Source: Streptomyces aquilus (GTDB lineage Bacteria > Actinomycetota > Actinomycetes > Streptomycetales > Streptomycetaceae). Taken from it: a stretch of 64,000 nucleotides of DNA. The notes beneath the pieces are model-generated. The model did not search any database. It was not told where the DNA came from and saw only the letters and a program-made list of their open reading frames with translations. The DNA lies in contig NZ_CP034463.1 in the NCBI RefSeq assembly GCF_003955715.1, positions 3,720,001 through 3,784,000 of the forward strand, given 5' to 3'. Shown one piece after another: positions 12,501-25,160 of this stretch (positions are counted from its first letter, which is position 1; each line of letters starts with the position of its first letter). The position numbers and the translations under genes were made by a program.

Positions 12501-13511
12501 CACGGCGGGCCGCGCGGGGCGGCGCGGCGAGTCCTCCTCGGCGGCCTCGTCACCGGCGGCCCGCGCGGGCTCGGAGAACCCGGTGGCGGCGCGGCGCACG
12601 GAACGCCGGCGGGCGCGGCGCGGGGCGGCCTCCTCGGCGGCGGGGGCCTCGGCAGCGGCTTCCTCGGCGGGCTTGGTCTCTTCGTCAGCGCTCACGGGCG
12701 CCTCCACGGTCTCGGGCGCCTCGGCGGGCGCGGCCACTCGACGCGTGGCACGCCGACGACCCCGACGCGGGGCCTCTTCCTCGACGGCGGCCTCGGGGGC
12801 GGCGTCGGCATCGGCCTCGGAAACGGCCGCGGGAGCAGGCTCGGAGACAGCCGCGGGAGCGGGCTCGGAAACGGCCTCAGGGGCGGCCTCGGTGCCGGTG
12901 GCGACCGGCGCACCGGCGGGCGCGGAGGCCCGGCGGGTGGCACGCCGACGCGTACGCGGCGCAGGCGCCTCTTCGGTCACCGTCTCCTCGACAGCCTCGG
13001 CCTCGGCCTCGGCCTCCGGTTCGGCCGCGGGTACGACGGTCTCGGCAGCCGGGGTCTCGGCGGCGGCCGGGGACCCGGTGGGCGCGGAGGCCCGGCGGGT
13101 GGCGCGGCGACGCCGCGGCGCGGGCGCTTCTTCGGTGGTTTCGGCGGCCGGGGTCTCGACAGCGGCGGCCTCGGCGGGCGCGCTCTCCTCGGCCACCGGC
13201 ACGACCGTCTCGGCGACGGCGGTGTCAGCGGCGGGGGACCCGGTGGGCGCGGACGCCCGGCGGGTGGCACGCCGACGCGTACGCGGCGCGGGTGCCTCTT
13301 CGGTCACCGTCTCCTCGGTCACCGTCGGCTCTTCCGCGGCGGTCTCGGCGGCGGCCGGTATGGCCGGCGTCACCTCGTCCGGCGCTTCGGCCGCGGCGGC
13401 GACCGGCGGACCCGCCGGCCGGGATGCGGCACGGCGCCGGCGGCGCGGCGGCAGGGTGTCGCTGGGGGTGTTGAGTTCGGAACCCTCGGTGGGTTCGGTC
13501 GGCTCGAGCAT
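9543..13511 (-). CDS. rne: RNase E/G family endoribonuclease
   Basis: 1322 residues from ATG 13511 (MLEPTEPTEG), with GGGAG about 10 bases upstream; the frame is open further but upstream sequence does not look coding. Streptomyces-type order: a long disordered N-terminal part (1 to ~575), a central S1/RNase H/DNase I-like catalytic core (~585-980), then a C-terminal tail. Catalytic aspartates lie in VVDVNTGKF (~880) and IDFIDM (~924); the zinc-link is CVHCNGRG (~982). Both flanks repeat a basic motif of the type TRRRATRRxSAPxGxP between Glu/Ala-rich spacers. The last ~55 residues are histone-H1-like KKTAAKK repeats. Roles: mRNA decay and rRNA processing. Confidence 0.97.
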   Translation of the reverse strand: MLEPTEPTEGSELNTPSDTLPPRRRRRAASRPAGPPVAAAAEAPDEVTPAIPAAAETAAEEPTVTEETVTEEAPAPRTRRRATRRASAPTGSPAADTAVAETVVPVAEESAPAEAAAVETPAAETTEEAPAPRRRRATRRASAPTGSPAAAETPAAETVVPAAEPEAEAEAEAVEETVTEEAPAPRTRRRATRRASAPAGAPVATGTEAAPEAVSEPAPAAVSEPAPAAVSEADADAAPEAAVEEEAPRRGRRRATRRVAAPAEAPETVEAPVSADEETKPAEEAAAEAPAAEEAAPRRARRRSVRRAATGFSEPARAAGDEAAEEDSPRRPARPAVAVFQAPVFTEPQFQTPERAAAAAAAEAEVEEPEEPAAEEPQEEPVASRRRRRRRGEPAETEAPQVVETEDEAEEADAEAEDGVEGDSEESEETGSRRRRRRGGRRRRRGESADSEAEGEEGDEFAADQDDRADQEAADTAEQIEEDAEDEHGDEGGSSSSSSRRRRRRRRRAGDASPDAEPGDGDPERTVVKVREPRPKAEPSDEVQSIKGSTRLEAKKQRRREGREQGRRRVPIITEAEFLARREAVERVMVVRQSGERTQIGVLEDGVLVEHYVNKEQATSYVGNVYLGKVQNVLPSMEAAFIDIGKGRNAVLYAGEVNFEALGMANGPRRIESALKSGQSVLVQVTKDPIGHKGARLTSQVSLPGRYLVYVPEGSMTGISRKLPDTERARLKTILKKIVPEDAGVIVRTAAEGASEDELRRDVERLQQQWEDIQKKTKNGNAPTLLYGEPDMTVRVVRDIFNEDFTKVVVSGDDAWETIHGYVSHVAPDLADRLSKWTSEVDVFATYRIDEQLAKALDRKVWLPSGGSLVIDRTEAMVVVDVNTGKFTGQGGNLEETVTRNNLEAAEEIVRQLRLRDLGGIIVIDFIDMVLESNRDLVLRRLLECLGRDRTKHQVAEVTSLGLVQMTRKRVGQGLLESFSETCVHCNGRGVIVHMEQPTSVGGGGKRKKRGRGGIEHVHEAAVAAEAAEAADHDEVETEAEVAAELAEPVALPAPFEPDEELYSSAAEAEAAATRGRSRRRASRRASAPAGAPRRERASERADRSEQREPEGQVEETVPTAQDVTVAEEVERPVQPEPAAEAHAEPVAAEDPVVEEAAPKGRTRRRATRKVSAPAGSPAGAEAAVVTVAEAAPAVEAPVEQPEAQPEAPAESAAPARPRRRAVRKATAPTAPEEAAVVVVPTATETETVAAEETEAPAKKTARKTAKKATAKKAATKKTAAKKTAAKKTVAKKTTAKKAAAKKTAAAEQQPLSSVSTTADES

Positions 13512-13771
13512 GCGGGCGTTTCTCCCGTCAGGCTCCCGGGCGCCGCGCCTGGTCCGGCGATGCCGGTGACGTCCGCGGCTCGCGCGTTGCGCGGTGCCGC
13601 CGTCCGGGGCGCGGGCGCCGCACGGGAGCTCTCTGTGTCCTGTCTCGCCGGTTCCGTACACCCTCTTGGGTACGGCCTGGCGAAAGTCTTCTGGTCGGTG
13701 CGCTGCCCGACCCAGGTGGCTCCCGAGTACGAGGGCGGCGCTACGACGTCCGTCCTTTCGCGGGACCTTCC
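13512..13771. other. 260-bp gap upstream of rne
   Basis: Region between the DUF2344 gene and rne, probably holding the rne promoter and 5' leader. It is GC-rich with several short inverted repeats. No convincing -35/-10 pair or ORF was recognised. Confidence 0.5.
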
Positions 13772-14530
13772 CTACGCCGGCGCCTTCGCGGCGGCAGCGG
13801 CCGTTGTGGGGGCCTCAGCTGCCTCGCGGTCGGGCGCGAGCGGGTCGGTCACCTCGCCGGTCTCTTCATCGAACAGCCCCTGCGCCAGCCTGGTCACCGC
13901 TGCGGGGACCGGCGGCGCCAGGTCGGCCACGGCGCGGAGACCGGACAGGACGTCGTCGGGTCGTACGGCAGGCGTCACGTGCCGAACAACCAGCCGCAGT
14001 ATCGCACAGGGCTGGTCCGTCGGCCTATCAGCCTGGGGACTGTGCGTCTCCAGCCGTACGACTGCGGAGCGGGCGTCGAAAGAACGGATGCCGTTCTTGG
14101 TCTTGCGCTGGACCTCGACGGCGTCGGCGGCGTTGAAGGCGACAACGGCCTTCTCGGCCTCCGCCGGCTCCACTCCGTCGAGCCGCAGCTCCCACACCGA
14201 GGCGGTCAGCCGGTCGGCGAGCCCGGACGTCCGGGCCTCGACCGCGTCGACGATGTCGAGGCCGAGGGGCATCGACTCGTCGAGCAGAACCCTGAGCTTC
14301 TCGGGGTCCCGCGCCTCGGTGAGGGCGATCTCCAGATACTCCGCCTCACTGCCCGTGCCGGTGGGTGCGGCATTGGCGTACGACACCTTCGGATGCGGCG
14401 TGAACCCCGCCGAGTACGCCATCGGCACCTCGGCACGGCGCAGCGCACGCTCGAAGGCGCGCTGGAAGTCACGGTGGCTGGTGAACCGGAGGCGGCCGCG
14501 CTTGGTGTAACGCAGTCGGATGCGCTGCAC
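13772..14530 (-). CDS. TIGR03936/DUF2344 radical-SAM-associated protein
   Basis: 252 residues from GTG 14530. It shows the family start RIRLRYTKRGRLRFTSHRDF and the AYSAGFTPHPKVSYANAAPTGTGSEAEYLEI segment. In many bacteria this protein sits beside, or is fused to, the TIGR03960 radical SAM protein; here the partner (23120-25084) lies 8.5 kb away beyond an island. The start is uncertain: no ribosome site precedes GTG 14530, whereas an in-frame CTG at 14572 (GKRQPEG next) has AAGGA 10 bases upstream inside the preceding gene's end. Biochemical role unresolved; a link to RNA modification is only inferred from the partnership. Confidence 0.9.
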   Translation of the reverse strand: MQRIRLRYTKRGRLRFTSHRDFQRAFERALRRAEVPMAYSAGFTPHPKVSYANAAPTGTGSEAEYLEIALTEARDPEKLRVLLDESMPLGLDIVDAVEARTSGLADRLTASVWELRLDGVEPAEAEKAVVAFNAADAVEVQRKTKNGIRSFDARSAVVRLETHSPQADRPTDQPCAILRLVVRHVTPAVRPDDVLSGLRAVADLAPPVPAAVTRLAQGLFDEETGEVTDPLAPDREAAEAPTTAAAAAKAPA

Positions 14531-14578: not shown

Positions 14579-15739
14579 TCAGTCCTTCGTGAGAGCGGTC
14601 GTACTCCTACCAAGAGTACGTGTCTCGAGCCCCGTCGGTTCCCGCCGGTCCACGGCGACCGTCTCCCGGGGCTCGCCGAAGAGCATGCGCCGGAAGTCGG
14701 CGCGCGCCTGCCGCGCGGTCTCCCGTACGGAGGCGAGCGCCTCCCGCGTGGCCCTCCCGACACCACGGGCGACCTCGGCGACGGGCCGCAGCACGGCATC
14801 ACGTACGACATGTCCGACCGGGGTGAGCAGGGTCCGGTACGTCCAGCGCACCGGCTCGACGAAGACCCACCGGAAGAGGGCGGCGAGGAACCGTCCGACG
14901 GCGAGCGAGACGTGCCCGGCGATCCGCCAGGCGTGCCCGAGCGCGTCCCCCACCTCCCGCCCGACCACGGCGAGGAACCGCCCGACCGGCGTGAGCACCC
15001 AGCGCCACAGGGCGAGCACCGGCAGCACGAACGCCACGCGCGTGACCCAGTACAGCGCGAGCCCGATCCCCCGGAGCAGCCACATCACGCCGTGCCCGAC
15101 CGGCGTGAGGACCCACTCGTACAGCCACACGGCGGGCACGACGACGAGACAGCGCACCAGCCAGGCGACGGCCGTGTACACGCCGATCCCGACGGCGGCG
15201 ATCCCGCGCCCGATCCCCCGGAGCAGCCACATCACCCCGTGTCCGGACGGTGTGAGGATCCACCGGTACAGCCAGACAGCGGGTACGACGACGAGGTACC
15301 GCAGGAGCCAGGCCCCCGCGGCGTACAGTCCGGCCGCGAGTGCGGCGAACCCGCGTCCGACCCCTCGGGCGGCCCACGCGATGGCGTGCCCCACGGGCGT
15401 GAGCACGTACCGGTACAGCCACACGGCGGGTACGACGACCAGCACGTTCCCGAGCCACGCGAGCCCCTTGCCGAGGGGTACGAGCACATACCGCCACAGG
15501 CCCAGAAGCGGCCACACGAACAGGATGCGCCCTGTCCACTCGAGCACCCACTCCAGGGCGCGGCCCAGCGGCCGCAGCACGGTGTCGTTCAGGAACCGTC
15601 CGGCGACGACGAGCGCGTCCCACGCCATGCGCACGGGCACGACCAACACGAGCACGACGATCCGCACCGGGATGCGGATGGCCGTCACGAGGCACCCCTC
15701 CGGCTGTCGGGGCTCAGGCAGCGGCTTCTGCGGTTCCAT
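14579..15739 (-). CDS. LTPVG-repeat multi-pass membrane protein
   Basis: 386 residues if read from ATG 15739 (MEPQKPLPEP); a GTG at 15799 would add 20. No convincing ribosome site marks either. After RIPVRIVVLVLVVPVRM the protein is built from repeats of about 49 residues centred on PAVWLYRxVLTPVGHG followed by WLLRGIGRG. At least six copies occur, degenerating toward the C-terminus, which ends in a soluble Arg-rich tail. Regular Trp/Val segments separated by LTPVG turns suggest helical hairpins in or on the membrane. Adjacent to DUF2344 on the same strand, 6 bp from its possible CTG start. Family and function not recognised. Confidence 0.85.
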   Translation of the reverse strand: MEPQKPLPEPRQPEGCLVTAIRIPVRIVVLVLVVPVRMAWDALVVAGRFLNDTVLRPLGRALEWVLEWTGRILFVWPLLGLWRYVLVPLGKGLAWLGNVLVVVPAVWLYRYVLTPVGHAIAWAARGVGRGFAALAAGLYAAGAWLLRYLVVVPAVWLYRWILTPSGHGVMWLLRGIGRGIAAVGIGVYTAVAWLVRCLVVVPAVWLYEWVLTPVGHGVMWLLRGIGLALYWVTRVAFVLPVLALWRWVLTPVGRFLAVVGREVGDALGHAWRIAGHVSLAVGRFLAALFRWVFVEPVRWTYRTLLTPVGHVVRDAVLRPVAEVARGVGRATREALASVRETARQARADFRRMLFGEPRETVAVDRREPTGLETRTLGRSTTALTKD

Positions 15740-15814
15740 ACCGGACAAGACGCCGCGGCCCGCGCCCTGGATGCACCCGGTGGGTTGCGATGCCGTCACG
15801 GCGCTTGTCCGCTG

Positions 15815-15853
15815 GACCGTTTTACCTATTTGCTAGACCGTTTTACCTATTTG
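15815..15853. repeat. two 18-bp direct repeats 21 bp apart
   Basis: GACCGTTTTACCTATTTG occurs at 15815-15832 and 15836-15853, joined by CTA. This AT-rich spot lies in the divergent gap between the LTPVG protein and the collagen-like gene. The 21-bp period equals two helical turns, so a regulator-binding site or duplicated promoter element is plausible. Confidence 0.85.
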
Positions 15854-15959
15854 ACGGCGCGTCCGTCGCGCGCACGTCGGCTGTCGAGGGCGGCCGGGTC
15901 ACGCTCGCACCGAGGTCCGGGAACTCCCCCGGACCCGTTTGGTGCCAAGGAGCATGCCT

Positions 15960-16799
15960 ATGAGTCCTCGACACACTCCCTCGCTGCTGGGGCCGCCGGC
16001 CCGGGCGAGGTTCCAGAAGGCCGGGGTGCTGACCTCCCTCGCCCTGGTCGTCGCCGGCGGACTGGTCACCCCGGCCGCGGCGGCCGCTCGGGCGGTGTCC
16101 GAGAGACCGGCGGCGACGCCGCGGACGGGCGACAACTGCAAGCCGCACAAGCCGCATCGCTCGACGGCGGGCGCGGAGGCGTACACCGGCAAGGACAAGT
16201 GCAAGGGCGCCACCGGGGCGACGGGCCCCAAGGGCGCCACGGGGCCGAAGGGCCCGACGGGCGCGAAGGGAGCCACCGGGGCGACCGGACCCGCGGGTGC
16301 GACGGGCGCCACCGGAGCCACCGGTCCTTCGGGCGAGAACGGCACGCCGGGTGCCACGGGCGCGACCGGTGCGACGGGAGCGACCGGTGCCACCGGCGCG
16401 CCCGGCCTGTGCGTCGACATCGACGCCACCCGGGACGAGAACAACTTCGAGCTGCGGGCCGCGCTGTCCCCGGCGACCGCCGGCGACCCGGTCACCAGGG
16501 CCTACGCGGGCATTCGCGACCTTCAGCCGCAGCCCGGGCCGTACCTGTGGACGGACCTCAGCCAGCTCGACAACTACCCGTCGAACGCCTGCGCGATCTC
16601 CATCGCGCAACAGGCCCTGGGCGGGATGGACACGGAAGGGGACGTCAACATCGACGTCATCACCACGGCCGGTGCGATCTGGGAGACCACGTGTGACGTG
16701 AGCACCAGCGACATCACGCTGACCTGTGAGGACGACTGGACCCTGGTGAACCGGCAGCCCGCGCCCGGCGCCGTGAACGGCGGGACCGTCGTCCCGTAG
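15960..16799 (+). CDS. secreted collagen-like Gly-Ala-Thr repeat protein
   Basis: 279 residues from ATG 15960, chosen because AAGGAG lies seven bases upstream; an ATG at 15954 is too close. A Sec signal ([19 protein letters not shown], ~20-40) is followed by about 22 uninterrupted Gly-X-Y triplets, mostly GAT with a few GPK, GPS and GTP (~82-148). A C-terminal globular domain of ~130 residues contains three Cys (LCVDI, NACAI, TTCDV). Bacterial collagens of this type form triple helices; Thr in Y can be stabilised by glycosylation. Two glycosyltransferases lie immediately downstream, which may or may not be linked. Convergent with the GT-C gene. Confidence 0.9.
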
Positions 16800-16811
16800 C
16801 ACCGCCGCAAG

Positions 16812-16849
16812 GGGGTGTCCGGCAGCATGTCAGGACTGCCGGGCGCCCC
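16812..16849. terminator. hairpin between the convergent collagen-like and GT-C genes
   Basis: 16812-16825 pairs with 16836-16849 (14 bp, two G-U wobbles as RNA, 10-base loop). It overlaps the 3' end of the minus-strand gene and could serve both directions. Confidence 0.6.
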
Positions 16850-18365
16850 CTGCCGCGCCGACGCGCTCCAGCAGACTCACCGTCATCCCCGTCACCGGCG
16901 TGCTCGTCGAGATCCTGTACCGGCTGCGCAGGGCCCCCGCCTGCGCCGGGTCGATCGCGTTGAAGGGGAAGTCGGTGCCCTGCGTCAGCAGCCAGATGCG
17001 GCGCTCGCCCTTCAGACACAGCTCCGGGACGGAGCACTGGGCCGGGTAGAGGTCGTCGATCTGGGCCGGCGTCCGCGTCCGAAAGACGTCCCGCAGCTCC
17101 AGGTCACGCGGCAGGTAGTAGCGCACACCACCGTCGAGCTGCCAGCTGTCGAAACGGTCGTAGACGACCGCGTCCCCGGGCCGGTGGAGCCGCTCGATCA
17201 CCTCGGCCGCCGCCGCGTAGTCGAGGGGCACCGGGGCGTTGTGCTCGAAGGGCTGCCGCAGCTGCCGCTGGTCCGGCAGGGCGAGCAGCGCCAGCGCCAC
17301 GACGGCCACCGCTGCCGCCTTCCAGGAACGCCGGGCCGCGGCCAGCCCCGAGCCGGCCGGCAGCGCCCAGGCCGGGAGGGTGAACAGGACGTAGACGCCG
17401 CGGAAGTAGGAGACCTCGCCGTGCGAGGCGGCCCAGACCAGGGCCGGGGGCAGCAGCGCCCAGGTGCCGCACAGCAGCAGGGGTGCCCTGCGCTCCGAGC
17501 GGGCCGCCAGGGCGAGCGCGATGAGGGCTCCGGCGCACAGCGCGGAGGCGAAGACCTCGCCGGGGAGGGAGAGCAGTGCCCAGCCGTCGGGCGCCGGGAC
17601 CCAGTACAGCTGGCGTCCGGCCTGGGAGCGGCCGAGCAGGGCGAGCGGGGTGACCGTCGCTGCGGCCGCCGTCAGGGCGAGGCCGGCCCGCCACCACAGG
17701 GAGCGGTCGCGGCGCGCGTGGGCGGCGAGCAGACAGAGGTGGGCGATCACGACGGAGAGCGCGATCAGGTGCAGCAGCCCGGTGAGGGCCAGCGCGAGCG
17801 CGTAGGCGGCCCAGCGCCAGGGGCCGCGCGGCCGGTCCAGGGCGCGGAGCAGCAGGAGCGTGGCGCCGGCGACGGCCAGCATCACCAGCGCGTACGAGCG
17901 GGCTTCCTGGCCGTAGCGGCTCACGGCCGGGACGAGCGCGAAGAGGAACCCGGCCAGAATTCCGGCCCGATATCCGAAGAGCCGGTTCCCGAGGAGTGCC
18001 ACGACGGCCGCCGTCCCCGCCACCGCGAACAGGGAAGGAAGCCGCAGCGAAAGAACGGAATCCCCGAAGAGCTTCACCCATCCGTGCATCAGCAGGTAAT
18101 AGGTGCCGTGTACGGCGTCGACATTGCGCAGCGTGGCGAGAATCCGGCCGGTGTCCCGGCTGGCCATGTCCCAGGTGACCAGCTCGTCGCGGCCGAGCAG
18201 CGGACCGGTCAGCCCGAAGCCGCCCAGGCCCAGGGTGAGGGCGAACGGCGCCGCCCACAGCAGCACGCGGCCGCGCACGGACACGTCCGCGACAGCGGGA
18301 CGGAATTCTTCGCGAGGCGGGGGAAGCTGCGCGGCGATGACCATGGGAATACCTATACCTGCCAT
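16830..18365 (-). CDS. GT-C family (GT39/ArnT-like) membrane glycosyltransferase
   Basis: 511 residues from ATG 18365; ATG 18344 (MVIAAQLPPP) is an equally good start and gives 504. It has about ten hydrophobic helices. The acidic pair in the first external loop (LLGRDELVTWD, ~60) is the GT-C catalytic signature, and the following GTYYLLMHGWVKLFGDS segment matches dolichyl/decaprenyl-phosphate-sugar-dependent transferases. These enzymes move a lipid-linked sugar to an acceptor on the outer membrane face. The last ~110 residues are soluble and periplasm-like. Between a collagen-like protein and a cytosolic GT2; substrate unknown. Confidence 0.88.
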   Translation of the reverse strand: MAGIGIPMVIAAQLPPPREEFRPAVADVSVRGRVLLWAAPFALTLGLGGFGLTGPLLGRDELVTWDMASRDTGRILATLRNVDAVHGTYYLLMHGWVKLFGDSVLSLRLPSLFAVAGTAAVVALLGNRLFGYRAGILAGFLFALVPAVSRYGQEARSYALVMLAVAGATLLLLRALDRPRGPWRWAAYALALALTGLLHLIALSVVIAHLCLLAAHARRDRSLWWRAGLALTAAAATVTPLALLGRSQAGRQLYWVPAPDGWALLSLPGEVFASALCAGALIALALAARSERRAPLLLCGTWALLPPALVWAASHGEVSYFRGVYVLFTLPAWALPAGSGLAAARRSWKAAAVAVVALALLALPDQRQLRQPFEHNAPVPLDYAAAAEVIERLHRPGDAVVYDRFDSWQLDGGVRYYLPRDLELRDVFRTRTPAQIDDLYPAQCSVPELCLKGERRIWLLTQGTDFPFNAIDPAQAGALRSRYRISTSTPVTGMTVSLLERVGAAGGARQS

Positions 18366-18447
18366 TCCACCAGTGGCTGCTTGCACGCACCCCCGGCGCC
18401 GGATAATTTCACCGGGCGGTCCTTTTCCGCAGAGAAAAGAAAATGCC

Positions 18448-19581
18448 ATGAATAACACAAACGCGGTCTGCCTCAATATGATCGTCAAGGACGAGGCGCA
18501 TGTGATCCGACGCTGCCTCGAGTCCGTACGACCCCTCGTCGACAGCTGGGTGATCCTGGACACCGGCTCGACCGACGGCACCCAGGACATCGTCCGCGAG
18601 ACCCTCGCCGACCTGCCCGGGGCGCTGTACGAGAGCCCTTTCCGCGGCTTCGGCGCGAGCCGTACGGAGGCGATCGAGCGGGCCCGGGAGCGGGCGGGCC
18701 ATCTGCTGTTCATCGACGCCGACGACGTCCTGGAGACCGACCCCGGCTTCACCCTGCCGGCGCTCACCCACGACTGCTACGACATGCAGGTGCGCCACGG
18801 CCCGGTCGTCCACTGGCGCCCGACGCTGGTGTCGGCCCGCCTCCCCTGGCGGTACGTCGGCGTGCTGCACGAACACCTGGAGTGCGACACGGAGTTCAGC
18901 CGGGCCACCCTCGACGGCGTCCGCATGGTCATCATGGGCGGCGGAGGCCGGTCACAGGGCAGCGCGCGCACGAAGTACCTGCGGGACGCGGCGCTCCTCA
19001 AGGACGGCCTCGCCAAGGAACCCGGCAACACCCGGTACGCCTTCTACCTCGCCCAGAGCTGGCGGGACGCCGACGAACCGGCGAAGGCGCTGGCCGCCTA
19101 CGACCGCCGCGCGGCCATGGACGGCTTCGCCGAGGAGGCGTTCTGCTCCCGGCTCTACGCGGCCCGCCTCGCCCTGGAGCTGAAGCGCCGTATGCCCGAG
19201 GTCATGTCCCGCTTCCTGGACGCCCACGAACACCGGCCCACCCGAGCCGAGCCCCTCGGCGAACTCGCCCACCTGTGCCGGACCCGCGGCGAACGCTGGC
19301 CGCTCGCGTACCTGTTCGCACGACGCGCGGCGGAGCTCCCGCCACCCGACGACATCCTCTTCGTCGAACACGGCTGGTACGACTGGCGGGCCCTGGACGA
19401 GCTGGCGGTGGCAGCGTACTGGATGGGCGCCTACCGCGAGTCACTGGAGGCCTGCGAGCAACTCCTGGACGGCGGAAAACTACCGCCGCAGCACCGCGAA
19501 CGGGTGACCGCCAACCACGAATTCGCCCGTACCAAACTGGCCGTGAGCTCGCCCTCCGGAAAGGCCCCGAACGGAAGGTGA
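18448..19581 (+). CDS. GT2 glycosyltransferase with TPR-like C-terminus
   Basis: 377 residues from ATG 18448, preceded by a purine-rich AGAGAAAAGAAA. The first ~220 residues are a compact SunS/WaaE-type GT2: CLNMIVKDEAHVIRRCL, then ILDTGSTDGTQDI and the metal site FIDADDV. The C-terminal half (EEAFCSRLYAARLALEL and following) is alpha-helical with TPR-like spacing, a layout found in cytosolic glycosyltransferases that modify peptides or lipids. Divergent from the GT-C gene with ~80 bp shared upstream. Ends 54 bp before the displaced radical SAM tail. Acceptor unknown. Confidence 0.88.
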   Translation: MNNTNAVCLNMIVKDEAHVIRRCLESVRPLVDSWVILDTGSTDGTQDIVRETLADLPGALYESPFRGFGASRTEAIERARERAGHLLFIDADDVLETDPGFTLPALTHDCYDMQVRHGPVVHWRPTLVSARLPWRYVGVLHEHLECDTEFSRATLDGVRMVIMGGGGRSQGSARTKYLRDAALLKDGLAKEPGNTRYAFYLAQSWRDADEPAKALAAYDRRAAMDGFAEEAFCSRLYAARLALELKRRMPEVMSRFLDAHEHRPTRAEPLGELAHLCRTRGERWPLAYLFARRAAELPPPDDILFVEHGWYDWRALDELAVAAYWMGAYRESLEACEQLLDGGKLPPQHRERVTANHEFARTKLAVSSPSGKAPNGR

Positions 19582-19634: not shown

Positions 19635-19745
19635 TCAGTGCGAGTGCCCACTCCCAGCAGACGCCGACGCCGCGTTCTTGACCGTCAGCGGCAGCAGCTT
19701 CTTTCCGGTCGGGCCGATCTGGATGTGGGTGTCCATCTGCGGGCA
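19635..19745 (-). pseudogene. displaced 3' end of the radical SAM gene (repeat copy 1)
   Basis: This frame encodes CPQMDTHIQIGPTGKKLL, then [18 protein letters not shown] and a stop, clearly the C-terminus of a TIGR03960 protein. It has no upstream coding sequence; homology stops abruptly at the Cys codon (19745). Its 74-bp core (19672-19745) matches the tail of the functional gene (23151-23224) at 62 of 74 positions by hand count, without gaps. It is best read as the original gene end pushed 3.4 kb away by insertions. Confidence 0.85.
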
Positions 19746-19775
19746 AAGGCGTATGACGGAACCTGCGCGGTCGGG

Positions 19776-20189
19776 TCAGACAGCAACACCCGGGATCAGC
19801 GCCACCAGCCCGGAAATAAAGCTGCCCACCGCCGCAAGGGTCACGAGGGCTGCTTTGCCATCCGAGAACAACCCGGAGCAGAACTCGCGCACGCGGCGCC
19901 GGAGGATCAGCATCTTGAGCTTCTGCCAGCGATGTTGATGGATGTGGCAGCCCATGAGGATGCCGGTGGCGTTGTTACGGCAGCCGTCGGTCCGTCCTCG
20001 CACCGGGGCTCCGCAGGTCACCGGAGCTTGGAAGAAAGACCACAGCAGGACCGAGGCCGACAGGACGATGATCACCACTGGGCCGGCTGCCGCGTTGATC
20101 CACGCCGCGATGAGAAGCGCCCCGGCCAGGACGCCCCACCACTGCCCTAAACCACCGAACCGACTGCGTATCGCCCCCGAAGTCGCCAT
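19776..20189 (-). CDS. small membrane protein with a Cys/His motif
   Basis: 137 residues from ATG 20189, no clear ribosome site. Two adjacent hydrophobic helices (~16-34, ~36-53) and a third at 112-134 flank a cytosolic loop. That loop holds C59, C70, C81 and H82/H84/H86 in the pattern CGAPVRGRTDGC...GCHIHQHRWQK. Similar CxAxTRxGxxC...CxxH motifs occur in many small actinobacterial and phage-associated proteins and may bind zinc. It lies between repeat copies 1 and 2, so it is the cargo of the outer module. Base composition is visibly less GC-rich than the flanks. Function unknown. Confidence 0.7.
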   Translation of the reverse strand: MATSGAIRSRFGGLGQWWGVLAGALLIAAWINAAAGPVVIIVLSASVLLWSFFQAPVTCGAPVRGRTDGCRNNATGILMGCHIHQHRWQKLKMLILRRRVREFCSGLFSDGKAALVTLAAVGSFISGLVALIPGVAV

Positions 20190-20263
20190 GCCAGTAATCG
20201 TGGCTACAGACCGCGCAAATCATGCGCCCAGTAGACGATATGACCGAAAGGAGGCCCCGGGGC

Positions 20264-20464
20264 TCATACCCACTCCACCAAAGCGGCGATCCGCGACGGG
20301 TCGCCAGGGCCTGGAGGTGGCGTCCGACGGGACGTCGACAACGCTGCGGGGCGAGAAGTCGAAGCGCCAGCTGCAACAAGCGCCGCCTGCAACTCCTTCT
20401 CCCTCGCCCCTGCCAGCGCCTCAATCACCTGATCGAGTGCCTCGCTCGCCTCAGTGCGCGTGAC
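20264..20464 (-). pseudogene. degenerate relative of the small VEWV ORF
   Basis: The frame reads VTRTEASEALDQVIEALAGA, continues as REKELQAALVAAGA, and ends in ALVEWV and a stop. This aligns along its length with the intact ORF at 22933-23136. The frame is open to 20500, but no ATG, GTG or TTG occurs at the aligned start position; the first usable codon is GTG within DQVIEAL. It is therefore probably decayed, or starts at an unusual codon such as CTG 20488. Confidence 0.6.
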
Positions 20465-20487
20465 CGCTCGAAGCGGGCGCCGGACCA

Positions 20488-20561
20488 GCGTTCTTGATCG
20501 TCAAGGGGCAGCAACTTCGTACCTCGGCCCGATTTGTATCGCCGTGCCCATCTGCGGTCGA
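20488..20561 (-). repeat. radical SAM tail repeat, copy 2 (diverged)
   Basis: It shares with copies 1 and 3 the blocks GCGTTCTTGA, GGCAGCA, GGCCCGATTTGTAT (copy 3) and CCATCTGCGG. It has small indels that break the radical SAM frame. The right edge of homology falls at the same CATCTGCGG as in the other copies. It lies between the Mrr-TerD gene and the degenerate small ORF. Confidence 0.8.
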
Positions 20562-20590
20562 ACGCAGACTTACAGATGAGCACAGAGAGG

Positions 20591-22651
20591 TCACTCCACG
20601 ACGATGCCGTAGTCCTGCACAAGTTGCTCCAATCCCCCCGTGTAGCCCTTGCCGCCAAGCACGAAGTCCCAGTCCCCGCTGGCCCTGCGCCGAAATGACC
20701 CGAGCACGAGGGCGGTCTCCCCAGGACGCCCGTCGGAGACCTCAAGTCGGCCGAGTTCTGCCATCGCCGGGTCGAGCAAACGGATACACGCATCCGTGAA
20801 CCCGGACAGATCCGCCTGCGGATTGACCTCTGGGTCGACGGCCGCCACCAGGACGAAGCGGTCGGCATTCTCCGGCAGCGAGTCGAAGGAGACTCGGATT
20901 GCCGCTTTGTCCGGCGCCGTAGCAGGGAGCGCACACACCGAGCGATCTGGCGTCTGCTGGTTGTTGAAGAAGACGAAGTGGTCGTCGCTGAGGACTCGAT
21001 TCCCGGAGCAGACAAGCGCGCAGACGTCGAGCGCAACCCGGCCGGACCAGGACATGCCCAACACGTTGTAGTCGTCGGGCGGGGTCGTAGCGCTCGGAGG
21101 CACCGATTGCCGTGTTGGGGCTGCTCGTCCACCCTCCCCCAGGCGTCCGCGCAGTCCATGCCGGTGGAGCAGGTCAATGAGTTCGCCGCCCGAGATGAGT
21201 TCCAACGGTTTGCCGTTGGCGAAGGTGTGCGAGCCGGGACCGAACCCCGCTGTCGTCACCAGGACCCCCTTGTTGGCGCCGGCGTCCTGCACAGTGCCGT
21301 ACAGGTCACGGACGGCCGTGGGGGGCACGGTGTTGCGGTAGCGCTTCACCTGAACGACGATCTTGCCGCCCCGTATGGGCGTGGGATCAACGGCATCAAC
21401 ATCCACGCCACCGTCGTTCGAGCGTTGGGTCGTCACGGCCTGCATCCCCATGGCCCGAAAGAGATCGGCAACAAGAGACTCGAAGGCGATCGGATCCATT
21501 TCGTAGAGATCCGGTTCCTCGTCGCCTCCGTGAGCAACGACGCGGTTTCCGACATCCTGCGGTTTGCGGGCAGGACGGACGGGGCCGAGTTGGTCCGGTC
21601 GAGTCGCAAGTTGCCCCCGAAGGGCGTCAGTCAAGCAACTGACCGCCTCCACCTGCTCCAAGTGCAACCCGGTGAACACGGATCGCTGCGCCATCGCAGT
21701 CGCCAGGTAGATGTGCGCTAGTCGTCCCGTCGCCGGATCGTGGTCGTCCACGAACCCGTTCAACGCCACGGACTCCAATGCGTTGAACTCATCCGCCGCG
21801 AATAGTTCATGCAACACGAGCAGCATGCACTGCGCGAGAACCTCGCGGTACAACGCGCGACGCTGGCCCGCAGGACGTGGCGTTTCCTTGTCCTGATCAA
21901 TAGACGCCATGTACCGCACCGACTTCGCCTCAGGGACAATCCCGTATCCCGGCAACTCCCAGTCGAGCACCAGTTGTCGTGCCCCCGGGTCGTAAGCCGC
22001 CGCAACCTGCCGGGGGAACCCTTCGGGCCAAGCCGTCGACGAGTAGAGGGCCGCCGTGAAGTATTCGACGACCGAACCCGGCTCCCTTTGCCGAACCCCT
22101 TCGGTCACCTCGGTGATGCCAGCGTTGTACCGACGCACCTCCGACCGCTGCGCCTCCGCCCACTGCTCGTATTGACGCTGCTGGGCGGCTAACTGCTGCT
22201 GCCGTTGAGCCTCAGCGGCCTGCGCCGCATGCCAGTCACGCTCAAAACGGGCACGCGCTTCGGCCTCTGCATGCGCACGTCGACTCGCGGTCCACCCGCC
22301 CTGGGCCTGGTACTGATTCGGGTCCGGCATGGGCACGGGCACTGCCAGTGGCCCCGGCGAGAAGGGTTGCAGCGCTTCGGAGCGCATCAACGAAGCCGCC
22401 CTGAAGGCCGGGGCCCGGCAACCGGCAGCAAGCACACCTTGCAGCGACGCGACCTGTGCGTCCAACTCCTCGGTGCGCTGCCTTGCCTCTGCTTGCCGAT
22501 ACTCGCGATGAGCCTGCGCAGTATGTCGCTGGTAGGCACGCGCTTGTCTCGCCCGCTCCCGCTGCTGTCTGGCCTCAGCCTCCAGCTGCCGCTGTTGCTG
22601 ACGTTGCATATCAGCCCAGACGCCAACAAAACCGCTAGAACGACGACTCAT
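20591..22651 (-). CDS. coiled-coil / Mrr-type nuclease / TerD fusion protein
   Basis: 686 residues from ATG 22651 (MSRRSSGFVG); GGAGGG lies ~10 bases upstream. Residues ~15-190 are Gln/Arg/Ala-rich coiled coil. A middle region (~200-360) is unrecognised. An Mrr-like PD-(D/E)xK nuclease follows: FESLVADLFRAMG (~384), GGVDVDA (~412), VVQVKRY (~435). The C-terminal TerD domain (~530-686) shows LGMSWSG, SDDHFVFFNN, ETALVLGSFRR and GYTGGLEQLVQDYGI, although the usual DLD calcium site is replaced by ALDV. TerD and restriction domains are both linked to phage and chemical stress defence. The gene sits alone between repeat copies 2 and 3, so it is the inner module's cargo. Confidence 0.85.
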   Translation of the reverse strand: MSRRSSGFVGVWADMQRQQQRQLEAEARQQRERARQARAYQRHTAQAHREYRQAEARQRTEELDAQVASLQGVLAAGCRAPAFRAASLMRSEALQPFSPGPLAVPVPMPDPNQYQAQGGWTASRRAHAEAEARARFERDWHAAQAAEAQRQQQLAAQQRQYEQWAEAQRSEVRRYNAGITEVTEGVRQREPGSVVEYFTAALYSSTAWPEGFPRQVAAAYDPGARQLVLDWELPGYGIVPEAKSVRYMASIDQDKETPRPAGQRRALYREVLAQCMLLVLHELFAADEFNALESVALNGFVDDHDPATGRLAHIYLATAMAQRSVFTGLHLEQVEAVSCLTDALRGQLATRPDQLGPVRPARKPQDVGNRVVAHGGDEEPDLYEMDPIAFESLVADLFRAMGMQAVTTQRSNDGGVDVDAVDPTPIRGGKIVVQVKRYRNTVPPTAVRDLYGTVQDAGANKGVLVTTAGFGPGSHTFANGKPLELISGGELIDLLHRHGLRGRLGEGGRAAPTRQSVPPSATTPPDDYNVLGMSWSGRVALDVCALVCSGNRVLSDDHFVFFNNQQTPDRSVCALPATAPDKAAIRVSFDSLPENADRFVLVAAVDPEVNPQADLSGFTDACIRLLDPAMAELGRLEVSDGRPGETALVLGSFRRRASGDWDFVLGGKGYTGGLEQLVQDYGIVVE

Positions 22652-22864
22652 GCGCTGCAAGCCCTCCCCAGGACGTCGGCACCGCCGACCAGAGCTCTGG
22701 TTGCCCCCACAACCAGGAGTGATGAGACGACTGTATCCAGCAACGGCCGCCTCGCCTACAGACTTGCCAAATGCGACCCACTTCGACTATCCGCGCAGGT
22801 CACACCCTTAGAGCGTAACCAAAGGTTCATCAGTCGGCACTGCGGGATCGACACCAAAAGCGAT
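22652..22864. other. gap upstream of the Mrr-TerD gene
   Basis: About 210 bp of relatively AT-rich sequence with no ORF. It must contain the promoter of the Mrr-TerD gene, since a terminator (22865-22894) isolates it from upstream. No clear -35/-10 pair could be fixed. Confidence 0.5.
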
Positions 22865-22894
22865 GAGCCCCCTTCCTTAAACGGAAGGAGGCTC
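22865..22894 (-). terminator. terminator after the small VEWV ORF
   Basis: GAGCC(C)CCTTCC at 22865-22876 pairs with GGAAGG(A)GGCTC at 22883-22894, loop TTAAAC. A short T-run (TTTT at 22856-22859) follows on the minus strand. It would end the radical SAM / small ORF transcript. Confidence 0.7.
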
Positions 22895-22932
22895 AGCAGC
22901 TTGCACGGCCGCGTACCCGAGGCCCGGAAAGG

Positions 22933-23136
22933 TCAGACCCATTCGACTTCAGAATGGATACCCGAGGACCCTCCAGGCTCTGGCAGAGGCGTTCGAGGGC
23001 GGCTCTCCAGCATCAGCTGCCGACGACGCGACACGCCAGCGGTGGTGAGCACAGCTGCAATCTCGACCTGGCTCGCCCCCGACAAGGCTTCAACCACCCG
23101 GTCAAGCGCCTCGCTCACCTCAGTGGACGTGACCAC
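22933..23136 (-). CDS. small VEWV protein overlapping the radical SAM stop
   Basis: 67 residues from GTG 23136, overlapping the radical SAM 3' end by 17 bp, which implies translational coupling. It reads VVTSTEVSEALDRVVEAL, then a Ser/Arg and Pro-rich middle, ending SEVEWV. A homologue follows repeat copy 2 (20264-20464). Conservation is strongest in EVSEALDxVxEAL and at the VEWV end. N-terminal half likely helical, C-terminal half disordered. The repeated position directly inside the repeat suggests a role in the mobile unit (for instance directionality or target recognition), but too small for a recombinase. No family recognised. Confidence 0.6.
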   Translation of the reverse strand: MVTSTEVSEALDRVVEALSGASQVEIAAVLTTAGVSRRRQLMLESRPRTPLPEPGGSSGIHSEVEWV

Positions 23137-25084
23137 TAGGCGCCGGCGCAGCGTTCTTGACAGCAAGAGGCAGCAGCTTCTTGCCGGTCGGCCCGATTTG
23201 TATAGCCGTGTCCATCTGCGGGCACACGCCGCAGTCGAAGCAGGGCGTCCAGCGGCAGTCGTCGACCTCGGTCTCGTCGAGGGCGTCCTGCCAGTCCTCC
23301 CAGAGCCAGTCCTTGTCCAGGCCGGAGTCGAGGTGGTCCCAGGGGAGGACCTCCTCGTAGGTGCGCTCGCGGGTCGTGTACCAGTCGACGTCCACGCCGA
23401 AGGGGGCGAGGGCCTTGTCGGCGCACGCCATCCAGCGGTCGTAGGAGAAGTGCTCGCGCCAGCCGTCGAAGCGGCCGCCGTCCTCGTAGACCGCGCGGAT
23501 GACCGCGCCGATGCGGCGGTCGCCGCGGGACAGCAGGCCCTCGACGATGCCGGGCTTGCCGTCGTGGTAGCGGAAGCCGATCGAGCGGCCGTACTTCTTG
23601 TCGCCGCGGATCTTGTCGCGCAGCTTCTCCAGGCGGGCGTCCGTCTCCTCCGCCGAGAGCTGCGGGGCCCACTGGAACGGGGTGTGCGGCTTGGGGACGA
23701 AACCGCCGATCGAGACCGTGCAGCGGATGTCGTTGGAGCGAGACACCTCACGGCCCTTGGCGATGACGTTCGCGGCCATGTCGGCGATCTGGAGGACGTC
23801 GTCGTCGGTCTCCGTCGGCAGGCCGCACATGAAGTACAGCTTCACCTGGCGCCAGCCGTTGCCGTAGGCCGTCGCGACCGTACGGATGAGGTCCTCTTCC
23901 GAGACCATCTTGTTGATGACCTTGCGCATGCGTTCCGAGCCGCCTTCGGGCGCGAAGGTCAGGCCCGAACGGCGGCCGTTCCTCGTCAGCTCGTTCGCCA
24001 GGTCCACGTTGAAGGCGTCGACGCGGGTGGAGGGGAGCGAGAGGCCGATCTTGTCTTCCTCGTAGCGGTCCGCCAGGCCCTTGGCGATGTCGCCGATCTC
24101 CGAGTGGTCCGCGGAGGACAGGGAGAGGAGGCCGACCTCCTCGAAGCCCGTCGCCTTCAGGCCCTTCTCGACCATCTCGCCGATGCCCGTGATCGAGCGC
24201 TCGCGCACCGGGCGGGTGATCATGCCCGCCTGGCAGAAGCGGCAGCCGCGGGTGCAGCCGCGGAAGATCTCGACCGACATGCGCTCGTGGACCGTCTCGG
24301 CCAGGGGGACGAGGGGCTGCTTGGGGTAGGGCCACTCGTCGAGGTCCATGACCGTGTGCTTGGACACACGCCACGGAACACCCGACTTGTTGGGGACCAC
24401 GCGCGCGATACGGCCGTCGGGGAGGTACTCGACGTCGTAGAACGCCGGGATGTAGACGGAACCCGTCTTCGCTAGGCGGAAGAGGACCTCCTCGCGGCCG
24501 CCCGGCTGTCCCTCCGCCTTCCACTCACGGATGATCCGCGTCATGTCGAGGACGGCCTGCTCGCCGTCGCCGATGATCGCCGCGTCGATGAAGTCCGCGA
24601 TCGGCTCCGGGTTGAAGGCCGCGTGGCCGCCGGCGAGCACGATCGGGTCGTCCAGGCCGCGGTCCTTCGACTCCAGCGGGATGCCGGCCAGGTCCAGCGC
24701 CGTCAGCATGTTCGTGTAGCCCAGCTCCGTGGAGAAGGACAGGCCGAACACGTCGAAGGCCTTCACCGGGCGGTGGCTGTCCACCGTGAACTGCGGGACG
24801 CCGTGCTCCCGCATCAGCGCCTCCAGGTCCGGCCACACGCTGTACGTGCGCTCGGCGAGGACGCCCTCCTGTTCGTTCAGCACCTCGTAGAGGATCATGA
24901 CGCCCTGGTTGGGCAGCCCGACCTCGTAGGCGTCCGGGTACATGAGCGCCCAGCGGACGTCACTGGACTCCCAGGGCTTGACCGTGGAGTTGAGCTCGCC
25001 GCCGACGTACTGGATCGGCTTCTGCACATGCGGGAGCAGAGCTTCGAGCTGCGGGAACACCGACTCGGCGGTTTCGGCTGACAT
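23120..25084 (-). CDS. TIGR03960 B12-binding-domain radical SAM protein
   Basis: 654 residues from ATG 25084 (MSAETAESVFP), with GGAAG six bases upstream; an earlier GTG at 25117 lacks support. The N-terminal cobalamin-binding-like domain (~20-200; GGHAAFNPEPIADF) precedes the radical SAM core with CTRGCRFC (CxxxCxxC) near 264-271. A C-terminal Cys cluster (CFDCGVC) is near 615. Usual partner of TIGR03936, here at 13772. The last 34 residues (from CPQMDTAIQIG) lie in repeat copy 3 and differ in sequence from the displaced original end at 19635-19745. The current tail therefore seems to have been donated by the inserted module, leaving the enzyme intact. Substrate unknown. Confidence 0.93.
   Translation of the reverse strand: MSAETAESVFPQLEALLPHVQKPIQYVGGELNSTVKPWESSDVRWALMYPDAYEVGLPNQGVMILYEVLNEQEGVLAERTYSVWPDLEALMREHGVPQFTVDSHRPVKAFDVFGLSFSTELGYTNMLTALDLAGIPLESKDRGLDDPIVLAGGHAAFNPEPIADFIDAAIIGDGEQAVLDMTRIIREWKAEGQPGGREEVLFRLAKTGSVYIPAFYDVEYLPDGRIARVVPNKSGVPWRVSKHTVMDLDEWPYPKQPLVPLAETVHERMSVEIFRGCTRGCRFCQAGMITRPVRERSITGIGEMVEKGLKATGFEEVGLLSLSSADHSEIGDIAKGLADRYEEDKIGLSLPSTRVDAFNVDLANELTRNGRRSGLTFAPEGGSERMRKVINKMVSEEDLIRTVATAYGNGWRQVKLYFMCGLPTETDDDVLQIADMAANVIAKGREVSRSNDIRCTVSIGGFVPKPHTPFQWAPQLSAEETDARLEKLRDKIRGDKKYGRSIGFRYHDGKPGIVEGLLSRGDRRIGAVIRAVYEDGGRFDGWREHFSYDRWMACADKALAPFGVDVDWYTTRERTYEEVLPWDHLDSGLDKDWLWEDWQDALDETEVDDCRWTPCFDCGVCPQMDTAIQIGPTGKKLLPLAVKNAAPAPSGHVH
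23151..23224 (-). repeat. radical SAM tail repeat, copy 3 (in the functional gene)
   Basis: The copy still joined to the full-length gene. With copy 1 it defines the outer limits of a 3.4-kb insert; homology with copies 1 and 2 ends at the CPQM codons on the right. Candidate attachment site. Confidence 0.8.
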
Positions 25085-25160
25085 CTCGCACTTCCGTGGA
25101 CTGACAGGGGTGACCATCTAGCCTAACGCGAGCGCGGCCACTCCTCGGACGCCCGAAGGG

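Follow-up and report, generated by a model that had tools for sequence, protein, structure and literature searches.

Accretion of modules at one gene end is already known from SCC and pseudo-SCC islands, CIMEs and the ssrA islands of Dehalococcoides. The SCC and pseudo-SCC islands of staphylococci are inserted at the 3' end of rlmH by the serine recombinases CcrAB and CcrC, can stack at this site and include recombinase-free members; none of them is known to retain a directionality factor (RDF) gene. The Dehalococcoides islands lie in tandem at one gene 3' end with direct repeats of the gene end, and 15 of them, without an integration module, were interpreted as possible cis-mobilizable elements (PMC3146451); in the portion of that article consulted there is no mention of RDF retention in the module-less islands. 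In Vibrio cholerae PLE, the integrase comes from the island and the RDF from the phage (PMC6002521). The closest described systems are phage phiJoe and the SCO2603-type serine-integrase elements, whose attB lies near the end of an SCO2606-like radical SAM gene (Fogg et al., 2017, PMC5311408).

The locus described here lies in a 64,000-nucleotide stretch of the Streptomyces aquilus chromosome (the window). With a probability of about 0.86, positions 19635–23224 consist of two modules without an integrase, arranged in tandem and derived from serine-integrase elements of the phiJoe/SCO2603 type; the site, the carriage of a gene tail, the RDF homology, the anatomy of the modules and the absence of an integrase are read directly from the sequence. 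The array resembles SCC in that serine recombinases, a gene 3' end as target, stacking and recombinase-free members are involved, but membership was rejected, the target gene being TIGR03960 and not rlmH, and the integrase of the relatives being of phiJoe type and not CcrAB or CcrC. The modules have gene tails at both ends and neither an integrase of this type nor transfer genes (the latter sought in the two cargo ORFs), which agrees with the definition of CIMEs, yet they keep an RDF, which is atypical for these. The Dehalococcoides islands are alike in forming a tandem array at a gene 3' end with module-less members, and differ in their RNA gene target, Ccr-like recombinase and 20-bp repeat (PMC3146451, consulted in part). 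In PLE, the integrase and the RDF are also divided between two genetic elements, but the split is the reverse of that in the window, whose modules carry the RDF and no integrase (PMC6002521, in the part consulted). Finally, the gene, the attB, the RDF family beside an att half, the variable cargo and a site that is often occupied are all shared with the phiJoe/SCO2603-type elements (from the part of PMC5311408 consulted), whereas the modules of the window are integrase-less and in tandem. The features, all on the minus strand, are as follows.

23120–25117, minus: radical SAM gene (TIGR03960; SCO2606-like), the insertion target, identified by NCBIfam, Pfam and Streptomyces relatives
23220–23221, minus: crossover dinucleotide predicted by homology, CC on the coding strand, inside the CPQM codons
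23120–23224, minus: tail copy 1, a replacement 3' end of element type and present functional C-terminus (Gln CAA, 'ATACAAATCGG' type)
22933–23118, minus: RDF1 (VEWV ORF 1), 61 aa, GTG start 1 nt past the radical SAM stop
22864–22895, minus: terminator-like hairpin 3' of RDF1 (1 found; shuffles mean 0.4, sd 0.6)
20591–22660, minus: module 1 cargo, type IV restriction-like fusion of an Mrr nuclease with TerD (E 6e-31 for Mrr_cat and 6e-23 for TerD)
20451–20560, minus: tail copy 2, of element type with a frameshift, forming the array's internal junction (repeat alignment)
20264–20467, minus: RDF2 (VEWV ORF 2), HMM match E 6.7e-25
19776–20189, minus: module 2 cargo, 137-aa Cys/His membrane protein with homologues in integrase-bearing elements
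19635–19745, minus: tail copy 3, the original 3' end, native in type and now displaced (terminal attB half), including the stop (CAG-type sequence)

The assignment of the target gene to TIGR03960 in the first-pass annotation is borne out by the NCBIfam model (708 bits; cut-off 462), and its Pfam domains are Radical_SAM_N2 and Radical_SAM. The three direct copies of its tail reported there are real: positions 19654–19750 and 23133–23229 are 80% identical over 97 nt, and a second repeat pair (20524–20565 and 23188–23229) is 88% identical. As also stated there, the CPQM codons are the common edge of homology, and copy 3 encodes a complete C-terminus and a stop; copy 2 is frameshifted by a 2-bp loss. 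The repeat length of about 74 bp was too short, since the repeat spans about 105–111 bp, starting at the CPQM codons and including the stop, and in copies 1 and 2 the homology extends on through the small ORF. A search of the whole genome with the 97-nt tail gave three strong matches (E 1e-44, 5e-19 and 2e-18), all in the window, and a fourth that is a 16-nt chance match (E 0.88).

The junction falls on the CPQM codons, which align with the core of the phiJoe attP, and the crossover was predicted by alignment by eye to the annotated central dinucleotide of that attP. Beyond it, the phiJoe attP reads on in frame as CPQMDTWPQLAPPGGKMLPLTVRQGSDLRERP and a stop that overlaps the following gene, gp52. 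Accession by accession, the 54 phage records (42 phage names) that have the tail are also those with a phiJoe-type integrase, and the tail with its stop was read in phiJoe and in 9 of 10 further phages examined. A replacement gene tail in attP finds no mention in the part of PMC5311408 consulted. The unknown mechanism that had been implied gives way to a described one, the site being the published attB of phiJoe/SCO2603-type integrases (PMC5311408, in that same part). The modules of the window have a gp52-type RDF gene beside an att half-site and, as first noticed, no integrase. None of phiJoe type was found in the rest of the genome either, where the best match (26% identity, E 5e-14) lies about 1.8 Mb away; the modules are therefore not classed as autonomous members of the phiJoe/SCO2603 type.

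In the parent element, the left half of attP would lie beside int, and the right half would supply, in frame, a substitute for roughly the final 30 radical SAM codons, ending in a stop that adjoins or overlaps the start of the RDF. When attP recombined with the attB inside the CPQM codons, the new tail would be swapped in and the old one pushed downstream, so that the host gene would keep a full C-terminus; a further insertion at the occupied junction would stack another module. What is new here is the carriage of the tail in attP, together with many orphan RDFs just behind the stop of the host gene. A spare gene end in attP would explain how serine integrases can repeatedly target the end of a housekeeping gene's coding sequence without shortening the protein.

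The types of the tails speak to the origin of the repeats. First tails are of element type in 56 of 82 loci with an RDF (native in 26) and in 3 of 70 without. By position, the element type makes up 48 of 71 first copies and 23 of 31 internal ones (5 native), while terminal tails are native in 33 of 46 cases and of element type in 6 (internal versus terminal, p 6e-8). The native-type first and internal tails and the element-type terminal ones imply that tails have also been exchanged or that the typing is crude. To the left of the crossover, loci with and without an RDF both differ by 0.085 from the native consensus; to the right, the values are 0.217 and 0.116, respectively. If the gene end had simply been duplicated in tandem at the locus, with no site-specific recombination involved, direct repeats such as those seen, 80–88% identical, would be left, but such an origin is very improbable, given that first and internal copies are mostly of element type and terminal ones mostly native, that one junction is used across genomes and that the tail is carried by phages; it was rejected on the tail typing. 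Site-specific insertion at the gene 3' end, each module arriving with a gene tail of its own, as first proposed, is thus supported.

The two small ORFs were described in the first-pass annotation as homologous, and they are (53% identity over 66 aa). Judged by profile comparison, they belong to the gp52 RDF family: hhalign of the two families gives a probability of 97.3 and E 2.1e-11, with 60 of 62 columns aligned, and the family traits (about 60 aa, a conserved N-terminal stretch, a variable middle and a C-terminal IEW, VEW or VRW) are present. Pairwise identity to gp52 is low (22–28%), and tblastn of the first ORF against phages and plasmids gave no match; the link to phages was reached through phiJoe gp52 and profiles. 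A PHROG search matched the RDF of an integrase-bearing module to phrog_11213 (gp52 family, E 5e-5) and neither RDF ORF of the window. The radical SAM message is probably still the template from which RDF1 is translated. Decay is probable for RDF2, since GCG stands at the position of the GTG start of RDF1. On the RDF tree there are 13 changes between presence and absence of int, which only suggest repeated loss or exchange of int on a poorly resolved tree (67 columns; 2 starred of 74 inner branches).

The RDF starts 1–2 nt past the stop of the target gene in 55 of 70 first modules, and its pooled dN/dS hardly differs between modules lacking int (0.54) and those that have it (0.58), so that the classes are not separated. 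These figures, and the inhibition of integration by gp52 in vitro (in the part of PMC5311408 consulted), could mean that the RDF is kept as a guard that would be co-expressed with the radical SAM gene and would block phiJoe-type integration or drive excision. This is unlikely, as autonomous elements and phages already have the RDF behind the stop and passed this placement on, some RDFs are decaying and, to judge from the arrays, new insertions next to an RDF module still occur. It is similarly improbable that the orphan RDF modules amount to a standing anti-integration device with restriction-type cargo (Mrr-TerD); if they did, an incoming phiJoe-type phage or element would meet a directionality factor and be blocked or ejected.

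Among 392 genomes of the same genus, RDF matches were found in 89, and the strong set holds 92 matches (E up to 3.6e-9) from 68 genomes, in 73 clusters. In the regions studied, 91 of these 92 abut a gene-tail repeat, so the VEWV ORFs do not lie mostly away from radical SAM tails. Neither of the two outcomes that the first-pass annotation had named as refutations, this one and plain duplication, was therefore borne out. Autonomous elements have the order tail-RDF-cargo-int-tail; int accompanies 29 of the 73 clusters, downstream and opposite in all 29. The integrase set comprised 55 rows, each of at least 43% identity or a fragment of such a match, more distant integrases being left out. Of 71 delimited modules, 47 are int-less (six of these end at a weak tail, E above 1e-5, including the frameshifted copy 2 of the window) and 24 have an integrase or a piece of it, which, with the RDF family of the VEWV ORFs, also counters an unknown mechanism. 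As predicted, empty, single-module and multi-module genomes were all found, with varied cargo (25 of 71 and 25 of 84 families listed in the Pfam tallies), and accretion, at least two modules, is seen in 19 of 81 regions including the window. The survey thus yields ready sets of genomes with int, without int and with an empty site. The glycosyltransferase at 18514–19581 was tried as a fixed flank for comparing empty sites and rejected; by tblastn it lies downstream in only 9 of 161 regions (including the window), at varied distances.

No integrase-bearing neighbour is present in the window; eight other arrays have int or part of it. In six of these eight (L148, L153, L155, L159, L167 and L227) the module nearest the gene is int-less and the farthest one has int, with only part of int in L155 and L227, and the order is reversed in L180 and L197. 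By eye, there is no close match to any int-bearing attP left arm before copies 2 and 3. A weak motif, unlike the int-type arm, is common to the left junctions of the int-less modules (p 6e-15 when compared with random positions, a value not drawn from independent data, as these sequences are related). Short or weak RDFs make up 10 of 40 int-less RDFs, in a classification that ignored the start codon and so counted the RDF2 of the window as intact, and seven further int-less modules have no RDF.

The cargo of module 1 is matched by mREase_IV in PADLOC (E 2.9e-58), and the RDF-cargo spacer aligns with those of six other Mrr-TerD modules (61–67% identity). The layout is kept in the window, L153, L159, L182, L219 and L226, and partly in L019. 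An integrase-bearing parent of this module was not found: integrase-bearing modules gave no Mrr-TerD match, and no mREase_IV among 49 of their 54 ORFs (the cargo scans covered these and 64 of 68 int-less ORFs of at least 90 aa, leaving out six int-bearing modules above 12 kb). Module 1, RDF plus Mrr-TerD, recurs as a unit without int and appears to have been int-less for long. Its Mrr-TerD gene is 0.75–0.76 identical in nucleotides to those of L219, L182, L159 and L226, against 0.915–0.94 for the host gene, and this far greater divergence fits simple vertical descent poorly; vertical inheritance was set aside on the weak correlation between module and host-gene identities (Spearman 0.31, p 0.06), which is not decisive.

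Int-less modules could be non-autonomous satellites that keep both att halves and an RDF and depend for integration and excision on the integrases of phages or neighbours acting in trans. This is possible, though on the whole doubtful. Their abundance, their gene-side position in most mixed arrays, the left-junction motif of their own, and a Mrr-TerD layout that is conserved while identities mismatch vertical descent all point that way. Against it, the motif is weak and unlike the int-type arm, the RDF is short, weak or missing in the modules counted above, the S. aquilus genome has no phiJoe-family integrase, and any movement is predicted from sequence comparison. Module 1 may have been already int-less on arrival and moved in trans by the integrase of another element. 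With this large natural set of modules that have a directionality factor and no integrase, dead deletion products, hitch-hikers in trans and guards become testable alternatives.

Descent from phiJoe/SCO2603-type elements has against it the native-type first and internal tails and element-type terminal ones, the left arms before copies 2 and 3, the lack of an integrase-bearing parent for the Mrr-TerD module, and the low identity of the VEWV ORFs to gp52 with no phage match by tblastn. The cargo of module 2 matches no Pfam family at E 1, and its homologues adjoin the RDF in the integrase-bearing L164 (92%), L172 (85%) and L149 (79%); module 2 is therefore probably a deletion derivative whose integrase end was lost. 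Mrr-TerD was also considered as a cargo special to this site and rejected, since 153 of 382 genomes have a match to its C-terminal 309 aa (E at most 1e-30), and among the matches listed many lie on other contigs than the listed tail or megabases from it (G211, G267, G244, G226, G255 and G208).

The site at which the array is built is a known integration target. According to the available sections of Fogg et al. (2017, PMC5311408), the phiJoe integrase and SCO2603-type mobile elements use an attB whose distance to the end of an SCO2606-like radical SAM gene is generally 74 bp; elements differing in content frequently occupy this site, and in S. coelicolor a plasmid with the phiJoe integrase gene integrates, with low frequency, at either of the two junctions of the occupied site. 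The same attB is targeted by phiJoe, phiOZJ and phiWTR (available part of PMC12924846). The annotated attP core of phiJoe, read on the opposite strand, aligns with TGCC-CC-CAGATGGACAC in the CPQM codons of the radical SAM gene, and the homology among the three copies of the gene end in the window stops at that same point. The features concerned are the following:

23120-25117, minus strand, radical SAM gene (TIGR03960, 708 bits), 3' limit at 23120
20451-20560, tail copy 2, frameshifted
19635-19745, tail copy 3, full C-terminus and stop still encoded
13772-14530, TIGR03936 gene
9543-13661, ribonuclease E gene

Sequence comparison found two further downstream repeats of the 3' end of the radical SAM gene, and the order in the sense of transcription is gene, tail 1, RDF1, Mrr-TerD fusion, tail 2, RDF2, 137-aa membrane protein, tail 3. 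The RDFs are the small ORFs with VEWV ends behind tails 1 and 2 (mutual identity of 53%), followed by the Mrr-TerD cargo in module 1 and the membrane protein in module 2. The anatomy described in the first-pass annotation is right, but its repeat of about 74 bp was too short: the repeat starts at the CPQM codons, includes the stop and, for copies 1 and 2, extends across the small ORF as well. RDF1 starts with GTG at 23118 and has a terminator-like hairpin 3' of it; in RDF2 this position reads GCG, and with tail 2 frameshifted as well, module 2 looks to be decaying.

The phage itself carries a replacement for the gene end. From its core onward, the phiJoe attP encodes, in frame with the host gene, a complete tail whose stop codon overlaps the beginning of gp52, which is the published RDF of phiJoe (available part of PMC5311408). 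With the phiJoe tail as tblastn query, 54 of 50,697 phage records matched, all from Streptomyces phages; the phiJoe integrase (E 1e-60 or better) also matched 54, and the two sets are identical accession by accession (42 phage names, as 12 phages have two records each). The whole tail with its stop could be read in phiJoe, and likewise in nine of ten further phages fetched; the tenth, phiScoe2, was overlooked by the pattern used, its tblastn match beginning at tail residue 2. In L115:11302-11625 and in L238-L247 (ten other actinophages), the attP of phiJoe-type phages encodes a full substitute for the C-terminus of a housekeeping protein of the host, and at most of the 54 tail matches no annotated feature names it. 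No mention of this carriage was found in the available sections of Fogg et al. (2017), nor any title or abstract opening describing it in the partly covered literature searched.

The assignment of the VEWV ORFs as RDFs rests on profile comparison, in which the alignment of module ORFs with phage RDFs spans almost their full length (probability 97.3, E 2.1e-11). The phage RDFs end in IEWV, IEWT, IEWA, VRWV and similar, and the RDF of one integrase-bearing element matches phrog_11213, the gp52 family (E 5e-5). The two ORFs of the window had no PHROG match, and single VEWV sequences are too distant from gp52 for detection by tblastn. Counted from the first base of the stop codon of the radical SAM gene, the RDF start codon follows after 4 or 5 nt in 55 of 70 first modules.

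The survey covered 392 genomes of the genus, the nearest named loci being mostly Streptomyces. The RDF profile (E 1e-3) matched in 89 genomes, against 72 with a single-sequence search, and 75 had at least two tail matches at E 0.01. The 92 RDF matches (E up to 3.6e-9) group into 73 clusters, 29 of which have a whole or partial phiJoe-type integrase within 60 kb, always downstream of the RDF and on the opposite strand (29/29). In the 80 regions fetched plus the window, 92 RDF matches have E under 1e-8, and 91 of them abut a tail. These sequences hold 111 modules, of which 71 have tails on both sides: 24 with integrase (two only partial; median length 6659 bp) and 47 without (2371 bp; six ending at a weak tail match). 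At least two modules occur in 19 regions, window included. Among the 80 named loci of the radical SAM comparison, an RDF stands beside the tail in 10 and is absent from 70. In four regions (L166, L178, L200 and L213, position about 2300 each) a tail-plus-RDF module has no radical SAM gene within 2.3 kb on its upstream side; these are apparently secondary insertion sites, and in L166 and L178 the left flank resembles attB (TTCGACTG...). A second clade of integrases, with about 46-52% identity to that of phiJoe, lies away from radical SAM tails among the matches listed in several genomes (e.g., G234:C1:5390250, G164:C1:331103, G315:C12:132952).

The exchange point can be seen in the divergence from the native consensus. 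In the 60 bases left of the anchor, loci with and without RDF are equally distant from it (0.085 each), while to the right the values are 0.217 and 0.116, the change beginning after ATGGACAC. An element-type tail is found at the gene in 56/82 loci with RDF versus 3/70 of the named loci without (p 2e-17), and in one of three further regions without RDF. Within arrays, 23 of the 31 internal tails belong to the element type, 5 are native and 3 other; of the 46 terminal tails, 33 are native, 6 element-type and 7 other (p 6e-8); related genomes are not independent, and both p values serve only as a guide. The window conforms, with copies 1 and 2 of the ATACAAATCGG type and copy 3 of the native ATCCAGATCGG type. 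Contrary to this simple picture, 26 of the 82 loci with RDF have a native-type first tail, suggesting that tails are exchanged or that the typing is imperfect.

No phiJoe-type integrase was found in a whole-genome search of the window's genome. Homologues of the module 2 membrane protein lie 170-289 bp behind the RDF in the integrase-bearing loci L164 (92%), L172 (85%) and L149 (79%; the same locus as L009), and also in the integrase-less array L153 (93% over 104 aa). The best reading of module 2 is that of an element which lost its integrase end by deletion. A stretch in L219 (4842-7920), in which no integrase was found, has an integrase-type left arm at its end (GGTTTTAAGCTCGTTGG) and is possibly an intermediate of integrase loss.

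The cargo scan of integrase-less modules covered 64 of 68 ORFs. Six are Mrr-TerD (Pfam Mrr_cat and TerD, PADLOC mREase_IV), and the remaining cargo is varied (e.g., N6_Mtase, DUF347, MerB, YceI, P450); DUF6879, DUF2199 and DUF5753 are common to both kinds of module. Within integrase-bearing modules Mrr-TerD had no match, and a complete PADLOC listing for 49 of the 54 ORFs in these modules contains no mREase_IV. The Mrr-TerD of module 1, with a related RDF-to-ORF spacer, also occurs in L153, L159, L182, L219, L226 and L019, and its ORF ends about 30 bp ahead of the next tail in the window and in all of these except L226 and L019. The gene is widespread (153/382 genomes), and between the window and L219, L182, L159 and L226 its nucleotide identity is 0.75-0.76, far lower than the 0.915-0.94 of the host gene. 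The integrase-less Mrr-TerD unit is therefore probably of old origin; either it was acquired on more than one occasion or it evolves fast.

The RDFs persist without integrase: one stands at the tail in 40 of the 47 delimited integrase-less modules (none in 7), 30 of the 40 being near full length without stops, and in 22 of the 24 integrase-bearing ones. Pooled dN/dS is 0.54 and 0.58, respectively. Retention and dN/dS fit either recent integrase loss or an RDF that still has some use; both kinds of RDF are intermixed on a tree of poor resolution.

Islands that stand in tandem at the 3' end of a gene, some of them lacking a recombinase, are known, for example as SCC composite islands. The Dehalococcoides ssrA islands are likewise so arranged, as are the CIMEs mentioned with them (available part of PMC3146451). 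What is new here is the carriage of the tail in attP and the many RDF-bearing modules without integrase. One contig filed as a Hamadaea MAG (L005) carries a radical SAM gene whose protein product shares 95% identity with that of the window and is possibly a misbinned Streptomyces contig. The neighbours at 14579-19581, between the array and the TIGR03936 and ribonuclease E genes, are not fixed, since the glycosyltransferase (18514-19581) was found downstream in only nine regions, at varied distances.
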